From NCBI GenBank assembly GCA_012837715.1, contig DUQR01000029.1:1-50851 (forward strand): a stretch of DNA of 50,851 nucleotides, in the 5' to 3' direction. This document shows positions 1-35,950 of this stretch, one piece after another; positions within the stretch are counted from its first letter, which is position 1; the number at the start of each line of letters is the position of its first letter. Origin of the DNA: Bacillota bacterium. Lineage in GTDB: Bacteria > Bacillota > UBA4882 > UBA10575. The notes under the pieces are model-generated. The model saw nothing but the letters and a program-made list of their open reading frames with translations. It was not told the origin of the DNA and searched no databases. Position numbers and translations under genes: made by a program.

Positions 1-8
1 TACTTCAT
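1..8 (-). CDS. 5' end of a gene leaving the left edge, possibly a transposase
   Basis: On the minus strand an ATG lies at 8-6, preceded at about 7 bp by a strong ribosome binding site (GAGGAGG, complement of 17-23). Only the first codons (Met-Lys and part of a third) are inside the window, so the product cannot be read. The inverted repeat just upstream, which buries the ribosome binding site, and the truncated gene on its far side suggest an insertion-sequence transposase. That identity is inference. Confidence 0.35.
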
Positions 9-11
9 ATT

Positions 12-85
12 GAGTACCTCCTCTGTTAGTCTTATTTTGTAAGGGGTAAACTTGCTTACACCCAGTATTCTAACAGGAGGTACTC
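12..85 (-). promoter_or_regulatory. Inverted repeat sequestering a ribosome binding site
   Basis: GAGTACCTCCTCTGTTAG (12-29) pairs with CTAACAGGAGGTACTC (70-85): 16 base pairs with a two-base bulge at 23-24. In minus-strand RNA the 3' arm contains the ribosome binding site of the gene starting at 8, so folding would hide it. Such fold-back control is known for several insertion sequences, where it limits transposase translation from read-through transcripts. The arms may also be part of the element's end. Confidence 0.6.
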
Positions 86-98
86 GTCTTTTCAAAGT

Positions 99-785
99 TC
101 ATTTGATTTCAATACAGGAATGCTCCTCAGTTAAATTTAAAAACTTTGTTAGTGAGAATTCTTCTTCTAATGCCCTAGAAAATATTTCTACAATTATTTC
201 TTGCCATTCGCGATCTCTACCCCTACCAAGAATACCATCATTTTTATAGTTTTCTGGGAAAGTTACTTCTTCAGGAACCCTATCGCTAAAATCATCAAAA
301 TACAGGATATTTGGTAATCTTTTTACTATTGCATTGACTAACGCATTGGTTTTAGGGTTGTTAGCAATATCTTCATTTTCATTAACCAATGAGTAACTCT
401 TTTGAAGAATACCATTTTCACAGTTTCTCATTATAAATATCTCCCTTTTATTATCAACAGCAGATTTTAACCACGTGTATAGCGGGTTATCCATTTTTAA
501 GCGGATCTCTTCTCCAATGTCTTGAAACTCTTCCTCATCCTCAATCTCAACTGCGGCAATTATTTTACATGGGCGTTGAGTTGTCCTATATTTATTTTTT
601 GGGTTTGTGTGAACCCCGTTAAGAATGTTGTCCTTATCTTTATCGAATGCCAATATCGCTTGTAGTATTGATGTTTTCCCAGATTCATTGACCCCAATTA
701 GAGGTATAACACTTTTATTAAGGTTAATTGTTAAGTCATCAATAGCCTTGTAGTTACAAATAGAAAATTTCTTGTAACGCATCAT
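99..785 (-). CDS. AAA ATPase of the OLD/RecF-like class, C-terminally truncated
   Basis: An ABC-type ATPase head of about 229 residues. It begins with a FxIxNYKAIDDLTI strand, typical of RecF, SMC and OLD proteins, followed by a P-loop GVNESGKTS near residue 32. No signature motif, Walker B or TOPRIM segment follows, whereas OLD-type proteins usually run to 400-600 residues, so the C-terminal half is missing. The open frame ends next to the inverted repeat at 70-85, as expected if a mobile element cut the gene. A longer frame starting with TTG at 797 would include the GGAGG (complement of 791-795). That sequence is better read as the ribosome binding site of ATG 785 or ATG 782. The intact relative probably served DNA repair or phage defence; the fragment is unlikely to function. 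Confidence 0.75.
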   Translation of the reverse strand: MMRYKKFSICNYKAIDDLTINLNKSVIPLIGVNESGKTSILQAILAFDKDKDNILNGVHTNPKNKYRTTQRPCKIIAAVEIEDEEEFQDIGEEIRLKMDNPLYTWLKSAVDNKREIFIMRNCENGILQKSYSLVNENEDIANNPKTNALVNAIVKRLPNILYFDDFSDRVPEEVTFPENYKNDGILGRGRDREWQEIIVEIFSRALEEEFSLTKFLNLTEEHSCIEIK

Positions 786-838
786 TATTTCCTCCAATTC
801 CCCGTTTTCATTGAACTACATATATTTTTTCCCCAATT

Positions 839-858
839 CCGCGCCATGGAGGGCGCGG
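839..858. other. GC-rich hairpin
   Basis: CCGCGCC (839-845) pairs perfectly with GGCGCGG (852-858) around a six-base loop, in an otherwise AT-rich gap. It lies upstream of the truncated ATPase and beside the 40-bp-periodic palindromes. No T-run follows on either strand, so it is not a typical terminator. Confidence 0.45.
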
Positions 859-887
859 CTAAGCGACCAATTTCATTTAAACGTTTA

Positions 888-990
888 ATAACCGAATCTA
901 TTCGTTTATATCCTTATTTCCATTCAATAGACGAACCTCTTTCGTTTATTGGGACAAATTGCATCTATTAGCGAATGTAGTTCGTTTATC
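888..990. repeat. Three palindromes at exact 40-bp spacing
   Basis: The 9-mer TTCGTTTAT occurs at 901, 941 and 981. Each copy is the right half of an imperfect dyad whose left half resembles ATAAACGAA: 888-896, 925-935 and 967-975. The arms are separated by 4-5 bases. The middle copy is the best, pairing 925-935 with 941-951 with one G-T wobble. The 40-bp period puts the sites on nearly the same DNA face, which would suit an operator array or iteron-like protein sites. The arms are too short and the array too regular inside for CRISPR. Confidence 0.6.
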
Positions 991-1286
991 TAAGCTTACT
1001 ACCCAATGTCACCATTCTATAAGTGGTCTCAAATTATAGGCTAGTTTTTTTGCTAACTTGTGGATAAAATTGGACATCTTTGCTAAGTATGTTAAATATT
1101 TATTTCGGCAGTTAACCTTTATATTCCTCCAATTTATGTCAATTATTTAATTTTATCCCTAAATTAAGAAAACCCAGATCTAGTAATCTAATTCCGTAGT
1201 TGTTGGTATTCTTTACTATTTTCCCACTTCTACTTGGATGAGTTTTTCGTGATACAGCAACAAACGGAACTTGGGGAAACTTCTTA
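991..1286. other. AT-rich intergenic region without a recognisable gene
   Basis: Nothing here can be supported as a gene. A minus-strand open frame crosses it but continues through the T-box leader, has no ribosome binding site and resembles nothing I know. It may hold the upstream control region of the truncated ATPase. Confidence 0.4.
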
Positions 1287-1321: not shown

Positions 1322-1640
1322 AAATAAAGTCACCCTATACGTTATAAGGTTTACACTTATATCGACTAAACCGTTGAGTAAGAAGAGTAGGTATAGCCGC
1401 TTGTTTTTAGAGAGCCGCTGAGGGTGGGAATGCGGTAACAAAGAGCGATACCGAATGGACTTACGAGGGCAGGGAGAAAGGCGCACCACCGCCGAGTAAT
1501 ACCTGACGGAATCTCCATCCGTTACCAAGGGAGCATATATGATTGTATATGGTAAGAGTGGGCGCCAAGGCGCCAAACCGGGTGGTACCGCAGAAGGCTA
1601 AAAGCTTCTGTCCCAGTGATACTGAGACAGAAGCTTTTTT
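1322..1640 (+). promoter_or_regulatory. T-box riboswitch, specifier UGG (tryptophan)
   Basis: The T-box core GGGTGGTACCGC is at 1580-1591. In Stem I, GTAAG (1378-1382) pairs with CTTAC (1460-1464) and GGTAT (1390-1394) with ATACC (1448-1452). The internal loop between them carries AGTA (1386-1389) opposite GAA (1453-1455), the loop-E signature of T-box specifier loops. The next triplet, TGG (1456-1458), is the tryptophan specifier. Uncharged tRNA-Trp would stabilise the antiterminator and switch on the downstream gene. The tRNA-binding bulge reads TGGT. The specifier assignment is by eye but agrees with the regulated gene being a tryptophan synthase beta homologue. Confidence 0.92.
1600..1640 (+). 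terminator. Rho-independent terminator of the T-box leader
   Basis: AAAAGCTTCTGTC (1600-1612) pairs with GACAGAAGCTTTT (1626-1638), followed by T residues to 1640. An inner CAGT/ACTG pair extends the stem. It lies directly after the T-box core, where the competing terminator of a T-box is expected. Confidence 0.92.
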
Positions 1641-3268: not shown

Positions 3269-4138
3269 TCAGATTAATAAGGACAGCGTTCCGGCGACAA
3301 TGAGGATTAACCCCGTCGTTGTCTTGCCGGTCAGTTTTTCTTTAAGGAAATAATAGGAAAAGGCAATGGTAAAGAGGATGCTCAATTTATCAATGGGCAC
3401 GACCACACTGGCCGGTCCGCTCTGCAAAGCCCGGTAATAGCATAACCAGGAACCACCGGTAGCAAAGCCTGATAAGATCAGAAAGCGCCAGCTTTTTTGA
3501 TCAATCTGCTTTAGTGTGCCTTGTTTCTTCGTGGCGAAAACGATGATCCAGGCCATTAACAATACAACAATCGTCCGGATGGCCGTGCCCAAGTTGGACT
3601 CAATCCCTTCGATTCCCACTTTACCCAGGATCGCGGTTAGGCTGGCAAAAATGGCGGCCCCCCAAGCATAGGCCAGCCATAGACTGCCTTTCGCGCCAAC
3701 CCCGTTTGTTGAGGGCTGTTTTTTCTGATACACCATAAGATAAGTGCCCATCCCGATCAAAATCATCGCTCCGGCCTTGATCAGGGTAATCTTTTCACCC
3801 AGAAAAATAAAGGCAAAAACCATGGTCAAAACGGTGCTCGCTTTATCAATAGGCGTTACTTTATTCACATCACCAAGTTGTAAAGCCTTAAAATAACAAA
3901 GCCAGGAGGCGCCGGTCGCCAGACCGGATAAGATGAGAAACAATAATGTTTTCCCGCTCACGTCAACCAGCGTCCGGTGTGAACCCACAATAAACACCAT
4001 CAGCCATGAAAACAAAAGTACAACAACGGTCCGGAGTGCCGTGGCCACATTCGAATCCACATTTTTAATCCCAATCTTGGCGAGAATCGCGGTGAGTCCC
4101 GCAAAAACCGCAGACCCAAAGGCAAATAGAATCCACAT
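3269..4138 (-). CDS. EamA-family DMT permease
   Basis: A 289-residue inner-membrane protein with about ten membrane segments in two homologous EamA halves. The motif AxFAxLTAILxKxGI at residue 8 recurs near 162, and TGASWLCYFKALQLG near 80 recurs as TGGSWLCYYRALQSG near 233. That duplication is typical of drug/metabolite transporters that export amino acids, nucleotides or other small metabolites. The substrate cannot be told. ATG 4138 follows GGAGGGGACAAGG. The gene converges on trpB2; a role in tryptophan-related export would be speculation. The upstream 336-bp gap holds only a gene-like scrap (4364-4474). Confidence 0.85.
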   Translation of the reverse strand: MWILFAFGSAVFAGLTAILAKIGIKNVDSNVATALRTVVVLLFSWLMVFIVGSHRTLVDVSGKTLLFLILSGLATGASWLCYFKALQLGDVNKVTPIDKASTVLTMVFAFIFLGEKITLIKAGAMILIGMGTYLMVYQKKQPSTNGVGAKGSLWLAYAWGAAIFASLTAILGKVGIEGIESNLGTAIRTIVVLLMAWIIVFATKKQGTLKQIDQKSWRFLILSGFATGGSWLCYYRALQSGPASVVVPIDKLSILFTIAFSYYFLKEKLTGKTTTGLILIVAGTLSLLI

Positions 4139-34150: not shown

Positions 34151-35950
34151 CTAATCCGCCGGGGACCGGGACAGCCCCTCCGCTGCTCGGCGCCGGTAAT
34201 ACTCCTGTAGAACCCCAAAGGCCAGTTTACGAGTGCGCTTGTCTTCGGCGATCAGACCTTTGCGGTTGTAACCTTGTTGAAAACGGTTTTGTCGCCTTGG
34301 CGAGCGGAAATCATATAAGATCCAAGGGGAAAAACCTCTAATATAATCGATGTTCCTAGTGATCTCAATCTGCTGTTGATAGACACGGGCCATATATTCT
34401 TCGGTGAACATTTCGGTGACCGGACCATGATAACCGGCCAAGGCGCCGGCTCCCGTCTCGCTGATCACGACCGGTTTCCCAGGCCGCCATTCCTTAAGAA
34501 GCTTGACAAGGCCTGCGTAGTCCGGATTATACCAGCCATAATATTCGTTTATCCCGATCACATCTAAAACCTGGGCCAAGCGATCCTGCTCCACAATACA
34601 AGCCGCCGCCACCAGTCTGGCCGGATCTTGCTTCTTGGCGGCCCGGAATAGATTGCTCATGAATTGGAAGCGGTCCTCCGTATCCGCGTTTTCATTCCCA
34701 ATGGACCAAATGATCACACTTGCCCGGTTAAAGTCCCGCTTGATCAGTTCTAACAATTGATTTTCCGCATCTTGATACGTCTCCGGATTGGCGAAGTCGA
34801 CCGTCCAATAGACCGGGAGCTCCTCCCAAAGCAAAATACCCAGTTCATCAGCGATCTGCGCTGCCAATTCACTGTGGGGATAATGAGCGAGCCGGACATA
34901 GTTACACCCTAATTCCAGCGCATCGGCAAACATTTGACGAATGCGCTCTTCAGTGGTGGCTTTCCCCAGTTCCCAATCGTCTTCATGCACGCTAATTCCC
35001 CGGAGAAAGAGGGGTTTACCATTGAGGAGCAACTCCGTCCCCCTAGTTTCAATTTGCCGGAAACCGACCCTGTCCTGAATGGTATCCTCTTGATAGGTAA
35101 TCACGCATTGATAGAGTTTGGGATTTTCCGGGCTCCATAGCTCCGGTTGACCCTCTACGGTAAACTCCGCCCGTCCCTCGATGACCGGGCTTTTTACTGA
35201 AATATTCAGTTCGGGGATGCTTAAAGTGACGATTTCTTCCGCAACGCCCTGCATAGCCTGGTTAACCTCGACTTCTGCTTTAATGGTGGAAAAGCTGCCG
35301 TCGGGCACAAGATAGATGGCAACCTGCTGGATGAAATTCGGTGGCAGACGCAAGAGTTCAACATCCCGGTAGAGCCCGCCGTAATTGAACCAATCGGTAT
35401 TCCGGCCCGGCAAGCGCTGGATGGAACGTTCGTTATTGACACAAATTTGCAATAAATTATCTTCCTTAAGATGGGCGGTGAGTTCCAGGCAAAAAGGAGT
35501 AGAACCGCCTTGATGGCGCCCAAGATATACGCCGTTCAGAAAAATCTTCGTGTCGTAGTTGGCGGCGCCGATCCGGAGGAAAACCCGTTCTCCCGGGCGC
35601 TGGGGCCGATAAGACACACGCCGGGCGTACCAGGCGCTTCCTTCGTAGTAGTAGTATTCCGGGTGCACCGTATTCCAACAGGACGGCACCGGCGTCAAAT
35701 CTCCTTCATCCCAACCGTAGTCCCAAGGGGTGTCTTTTTGCCAATAAGCCTGATCCCTCTCTTGCGGCCAGTTGGCTCTAAGCCCAGTATCGTATGGATC
35801 AACCGTAAAATACCAGTAACCGTTGAGGCTTTCGGCGGGACGGTTAGTCCGGAAAACCAATGATTGATGATCAATTCGTGCCATCGCATACTGCTGCAGA
35901 TAAGATTCACTATGAATGTGGGTAACAATCTTTTCGTTGATCGTAATCAC
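34151..35950 (-). CDS. GH2 glycosidase (beta-glucuronidase/galactosidase type)
   Basis: About 590-600 residues with the GH2 three-domain core. A jelly roll starts at ESLNGYWYFTVDPYDTG, an Ig-like domain follows, and then a TIM barrel. RGISVHEDDWELG and RLAHYPH lie near its start, acid/base Glu is in WSIGNENAD and nucleophile Glu in VISETGAGA. The short NENA-type motif and single Ig domain fit the beta-glucuronidase branch, consistent with a uronate substrate. Start choice is open: AAAGGAG (complement of 35950-35956) is a good binding site, but the next in-frame codons are GTG abutting it, then ATT, ACG and ATC; the first ATG is at 35884. The gene is flanked by the permease and DUF2264 genes. 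Confidence 0.88.
   Translation of the reverse strand: MITINEKIVTHIHSESYLQQYAMARIDHQSLVFRTNRPAESLNGYWYFTVDPYDTGLRANWPQERDQAYWQKDTPWDYGWDEGDLTPVPSCWNTVHPEYYYYEGSAWYARRVSYRPQRPGERVFLRIGAANYDTKIFLNGVYLGRHQGGSTPFCLELTAHLKEDNLLQICVNNERSIQRLPGRNTDWFNYGGLYRDVELLRLPPNFIQQVAIYLVPDGSFSTIKAEVEVNQAMQGVAEEIVTLSIPELNISVKSPVIEGRAEFTVEGQPELWSPENPKLYQCVITYQEDTIQDRVGFRQIETRGTELLLNGKPLFLRGISVHEDDWELGKATTEERIRQMFADALELGCNYVRLAHYPHSELAAQIADELGILLWEELPVYWTVDFANPETYQDAENQLLELIKRDFNRASVIIWSIGNENADTEDRFQFMSNLFRAAKKQDPARLVAAACIVEQDRLAQVLDVIGINEYYGWYNPDYAGLVKLLKEWRPGKPVVISETGAGALAGYHGPVTEMFTEEYMARVYQQQIEITRNIDYIRGFSPWILYDFRSPRRQNRFQQGYNRKGLIAEDKRTRKLAFGVLQEYYRRRAAEGLSRSPAD

Follow-up and report, generated by a model that had tools for sequence, protein, structure and literature searches.

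Three phased dyads at the edge of a gene cassette in a Bacillota genome as a probable orphaned attI site

The attI1 site of class 1 integrons (core L/R plus DR1/DR2), at which cassettes are inserted, is described as combining a G^TT crossover with additional repeats to one side that are bound by the recombinase, and DR1 and DR2 as favouring attI1 x attC reactions (PMC8946536). As stated in PMC9024848, attI sites beyond class 1 have been poorly characterized and escape detection by the standard integron finder, a complete Firmicutes integron has been reported once, in Limnochorda pilosa, and the usual definitions of CALIN (clusters of attC sites lacking an integrase) count attC sites only. With regard to the enzyme, the I2 helix is stated in PMC7790495 as necessary for cassette capture, and the view of the field given there is that gain of I2 enabled this capture. 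We found no account of an attI made of phased palindromes, or of a cassette recombinase without I2, in the openly accessible literature, subscription papers and preprints being outside the scope of the search.

Here, we analysed a stretch of 50,851 bp (referred to as the window) which starts at the start of its contig and which carries three palindromic dyads in phase next to a gene cassette. We consider it likely that an integron-like platform takes up its cassettes at these dyads, which would thus constitute its attI site, and the phased arrangement would then be a variation on the attI sites of integrons. The likeness to attI1 consists of a G^TT landing site with extra repeats on one side; however, attI1 has two direct repeats where we find three imperfect palindromes at intervals of about 37-41 bp, and here the recombinase gene is oriented like the cassettes and encodes an enzyme of another kind. 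As in CALIN, the genome carries cassettes but lacks a recombinase, whereas an attI would be still present and recognisable here.

Within the whole 50,851-bp window, TTCGTTTAT occurs exactly at 901-909, 941-949 and 981-989, in steps of 40 and 40 bp, and a single further copy lies at 34544. Each of the three phased copies is the right arm of a dyad, as an earlier note on this DNA had claimed: ATAACCGAA-TCTA-TTCGTTTAT at 888..909 (dyad 1), ATAGACGAA-CCTCT-TTCGTTTAT at 927..949 (dyad 2) and ATTAGCGAA-TGTAG-TTCGTTTAT at 967..989 (dyad 3), whose centres are 16.5, 56 and 96 bp, respectively, from the G of the crossover described below. The arms of dyads 1, 2 and 3 are complementary at 8/9, 8/9 and 7/9 positions, the loops are of 4-5 bp, and the centre-to-centre distances are 39.5 and 40 bp. 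An equally spaced triple of 9-mers with dyads was found once in the real window and in 0 of 100 first-order Markov copies. When the window was ranked with a weight matrix built from the other three array-bearing genomes only, leaving the window genome out, the three dyads were the top three of all 50,851 bp (26.2, 25.2 and 20.9 bits), followed by a site with 12.5 bits. By itself, the single-dyad pattern is a weak marker: CGAAN{4,5}TTCGTTTAT gave 14 matches in 31 genomes, compared to 8 for the reversed control, and 7 of the 14 fall in arrays. Matches were also present in G024, G027, G028 and G030, and identical matches in G003:C14 and G004:C29 were set aside as lone dyads of one common region.

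The putative orphan attI site, which comprises the crossover and the three dyads, covers 882..994 on the minus strand and reads toward the cassette; the evidence for it comes from alignment, weight matrix and palindrome test. The first gene cassette is represented by its 5' part (123..881, minus strand). Over 758 bp (window 123-880), only positions 172 and 345 are mismatched to a cassette in locus L030 (JAAYEK010000230.1, also G020:C227), which belongs to a Bacillota metagenome-assembled genome of another family of the same class. The identity ends at 880, at the cassette crossover, where the dyads begin. The G^TT crossover (879..883, minus strand) was accordingly placed between 882 and 881, a junction that aligns in five loci; the window junction has one A/T pair more than the L030 cassette. 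The same ATPase cassette is bordered on its 5' side by an ordinary attC in L030 (G020) and by the dyads in the window. The same alternation is seen for a gene-less cassette, X, with an ordinary attC before it in G003:C36 (L077) and dyads in G006, G005 and G008. The array has a G^TT crossover at one end with a first cassette attached, and other cassettes join at the same alignment column. An element of 160-170 bp with AGTTCATGGCAATGA inverted ends was observed inside or beside the X cassette in two genera (L077 499-663; L066 ~3340-3490).

In L030, ORFs for an ATPase, an acetyltransferase-like, a GrpB-like, a D-cysteine desulfhydrase-like and a methyltransferase-like protein (the GrpB and methyltransferase names were given by eye) alternate with long inverted repeats. 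As a single strand, one of these inter-ORF sites adopts a single long hairpin (z −5.6) in which the R boxes (outer) and the L boxes (inner) are paired, as in an integron cassette array, and one attC site of G011 folds with a z of −3.1. The L030 repeats are attC sites and, therefore, the ATPase gene is a gene cassette. The ends of the ATPase cassette are alike over about 19 bp (18/19), and those of the first cassettes of G011 and G012 at 17/19 each, all counted by eye. The usual attC R box has 7 bp, and the mutual match of about 19 bp between cassette ends in L030, L073 and L074 is well above this length. The AAA_15/RecF-like ATPase gene of the window (99..785, minus strand) is truncated, as the earlier note had said, and can now be specified as a cassette gene interrupted by an approximately 125-bp repeat at the contig end (1..122), which is found in several relatives; the intact homologue in L030 has 578 aa. 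This repeat (window 1-122; L023 ~1501-1626) carries a GAGTACCTCC.../...GGAGGTACTC inverted repeat; in G014 it is flanked by a gene on either side, with no transposase, and in others it is found at contig ends. Cassettes of this clade have strong GC-rich hairpins close to their 5' and 3' ends (window 838-857; cassette ends in L030), and several of these hairpins contain CCATGG in an arm or loop.

Since the array sits exactly at the attC position of a cassette array, it might be the decayed attC site of a lost cassette. We regard this as very improbable, because the two ends of the dyad region do not pair into one hairpin and the region forms separate small hairpins, in contrast to the one long hairpin of an array attC, and because a conserved layout of its own is kept in four genomes. 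Further attC remnants were observed elsewhere in the window genome, in G000:C46 (L123 ~1960-2700) and G000:C39 (L124 ~1335-1375), one of them with a copy of the companion element described below; they fit a decayed integron in this genome.

The array is present once per genome, and its period of about 40 bp, whose conservation in relatives the earlier note had proposed as a check, is kept in three other genomes. Dyad centres are spaced by 39.5/40 bp in the window genome (G000), 41.5/40 bp in G006, 40.5/40 bp in G005 and 40.5/40.5 bp in G008. In an alignment of five loci (these four plus a degenerate array in G003:C29), the crossover falls in one column and the three dyads are in register. Period and crossover distance are thus kept in genomes of differing sequence, which supports the suggestion of selection on geometry. 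In 5 of 9 loci (G000, G008, G020, G011 and G009), the dyad next to G^TT has its centre 16.5-17.5 bp away and scores at least 7/11. In G011, which bears a recombinase gene, the dyad centres are 16.5, 53 and 90.5 bp from the crossover; in G009, which bears one too, they are at 17 and 54.5 bp, plus a weak third, with a period of about 38 bp, the crossover being assumed to be the contig end. The sum score of the palindrome test was reached in 0 of 4000 shuffles each for G011, G009, G000 and G008, with values of 0.003 for G005 and 0.02 for G006; the distance windows of this test were set after the loci had been inspected. The three-dyad test was not significant in G020 (p 0.25), G012 (p 0.17) and the degenerate G003 array (p 0.35), and G020 and G012, with motif matches in the right interval, were dropped as three-dyad support. 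A sequence model of the four arrays, R1, from which the degenerate G003 array was left out, gave matches in 27 of 121 genomes at E<=0.1, strong only in the four training genomes, by construction. Only one further copy was accepted, in G013 (E 8.8e-5), where one dyad remains at the same place as in G008; all other matches (E 0.0026 or weaker) were taken as chance.

The earlier note had also mentioned RNA hairpins and an iteron-like origin. Dyads of this kind could fold in RNA, as a terminator or leader; however, the 27 pairs compared across 5 sequences show no compensatory change, the single strand yields small hairpins only, and no Rfam match was obtained at 888-990 even at E<=1, so that the RNA reading is barely credible. 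The origin reading found no support, as no replication gene or initiator-like ORF was noticed by eye in the first 9 kb. Conserved arms without compensatory change fit protein binding to double-stranded DNA.

Intact recombinase genes of the kind associated with these loci were found in 5 of 29 genomes of the class; the window genome and the three others that carry a full array are not among them. Every genome with an array or a recombinase is a fragmented assembly. In G009, the recombinase gene ends just before three dyads at the contig end. In G011, it is followed by the dyads, the crossover, a methyltransferase-like cassette and an attC. In both relatives the dyads, with a period of 37-38 bp, lie between the recombinase stop codon and the crossover. 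In G012, the recombinase gene is followed by a HAD-phosphatase-like cassette and then an attC, and in G020 a cassette edge comes next. In G003:C29, the degenerate dyads and the companion element flank a decayed C-terminal remnant of the recombinase (ILGHASLKTTEKYKHVSRRKLTDI), detected with E values of about 9e-4 and 4e-4 in a small database and without composition correction. One weak match in the window itself, antisense of the T-box region, was taken as noise. The position at the cassette edge, the dyads of recombinase-bearing relatives and the G003 remnant, taken together, point to an attI that is orphaned here. Because no recombinase gene of this kind was found in the window genome, its site would be a relic or be used only in trans.

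The lack of a recombinase in the same genome would also be expected if a chromosomal element (operator, origin or repeat) had been turned into a secondary insertion site for cassettes, and the arrays do occupy three distinct sites in the chromosomes: close to a T-box and a TrpB-like gene in G000 and G006, near a tctA-like gene in G005, and near an operon resembling 2-oxoacid oxidoreductase in G008 and, as the one-dyad remnant, in G013 (the last two assignments were made by eye). Against it, the recombinase genes of G009 and G011 are also followed by dyads of this sort, and the array is accompanied by the companion element and the recombinase remnant. No orthologous place with dyads and free of integron traces was seen, and we hold such an origin to be most unlikely.

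The companion element (1095..1175, minus strand) recurs beside cassette arrays or attC pieces, with copies in G000:C46, G005, G008, G003 and G006. In the window, it contains a sigma-H-like promoter at ~1103-1130 reading toward the dyads; our pattern for such promoters was present in 4 of 6 copies of the element. Upstream of the G009 recombinase gene, a sigma-H-like sequence fits fully the published consensus (as given in PMC4754846). Since background sequence of 98 kb already yields 12 matches to this pattern, the presence of a sigma-H promoter in the companion element is suggestive only.

With the dyads placed between this promoter element and the first cassette, and with arms conserved as for a dimeric regulator, a multi-site operator, as the earlier note had put forward, also has to be weighed. 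A host- or cassette-borne repressor would then bind the three dyads and control the upstream promoter into the first cassette. We judge this unlikely, given that the distance to the crossover is fixed at 16.5 bp although the cassettes differ, that the dyads of G009 and G011 come after the recombinase stop codon, and that no regulator gene common to the loci was noticed by eye. The proposal was right in kind as to a protein-binding array, whereas its position at the cassette crossover points to an integron attI and not to an operator. Control by the SOS response is expected for integron integrases, and the LexA consensus is CGAAC-N4-GTTCG. Boxes resembling it lie between the promoter hexamers of the G020 and G012 recombinase genes. 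As SOS (LexA) operators, the dyads themselves were rejected, CGAA-N4/5-TTCG being one to two bases too short.

For the attI reading, the minus strand would be ordered as a promoter-like element, the recombinase gene (lost here), three dyads, the G^TT crossover and the first cassette. Each dyad most likely binds recombinase, presumably a pair of protomers on double-stranded DNA, and the three bound dyads may load or orient recombinase at the crossover. Incoming cassettes, as folded attC sites, would insert there, in a manner comparable to the aid given by DR1 and DR2 in attI1. If correct, the three-dyad attI would provide a searchable signature of former integrons even after loss of the recombinase.

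The G009 and G020 recombinases scored 213.5 and 200 bits, respectively, against the integron integrase family TIGR02249, below its cut-off of 265, and no protein in 31 relatives exceeded this value. Matches below the cut-off were also obtained in 14 of 14 control genomes, so that weak ones mean just a tyrosine recombinase. The best NCBIfam match of both proteins was NF040815 (XerA). They differ from XerA/XerC-type recombinases in about 85 extra N-terminal residues, in their location before cassettes and in the promoters of three loci, which are LexA-like or sigma-H-like. Among solved structures, the one closest to the G020 protein was IntI4 (2a3v), with which it shares the catalytic core and an SPL(D) tail, in addition to having cassettes next door. 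The alignment consists of two blocks, between which there are 16 query residues compared to 58 of IntI4; we take this region to be the place of the extra domain with the I2 helix in integron integrases. In an alignment of four recombinases, with 47-48% identity to the first, none of the four has an insert at the I2 region, and the additional I2 domain near patch III that marks canonical IntI is lacking in them. The first ~85 residues gave a weak match to the HARP family in 3 of the 4 (L071-L074), with E values of 0.005-0.014, below the curated cut-off. On the basis of these comparisons, the recombinases appear to resemble integron integrases without the segment expected to hold the I2 helix.

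Whether these loci represent a separate Bacillota integron lineage, in which an I2-less Xer-like recombinase with a HARP-like N-terminus would capture cassettes with long-hairpin attC sites into a three-dyad attI, is in our estimation evenly balanced. A cassette recombinase without I2 would be a bolder reading than the attI layout. If such an enzyme does move cassettes, this would bear on the origin of integrons: the I2 helix would be no requirement for cassette capture, and the dyads together with the N-terminal segment might replace it.

On the other side of the companion element, a T-box leader of the neighbouring TrpB-like gene was identified at 1365..1618 on the plus strand (Rfam RF00230, 106 bits), which belongs to the chromosomal flank, outside the integron.
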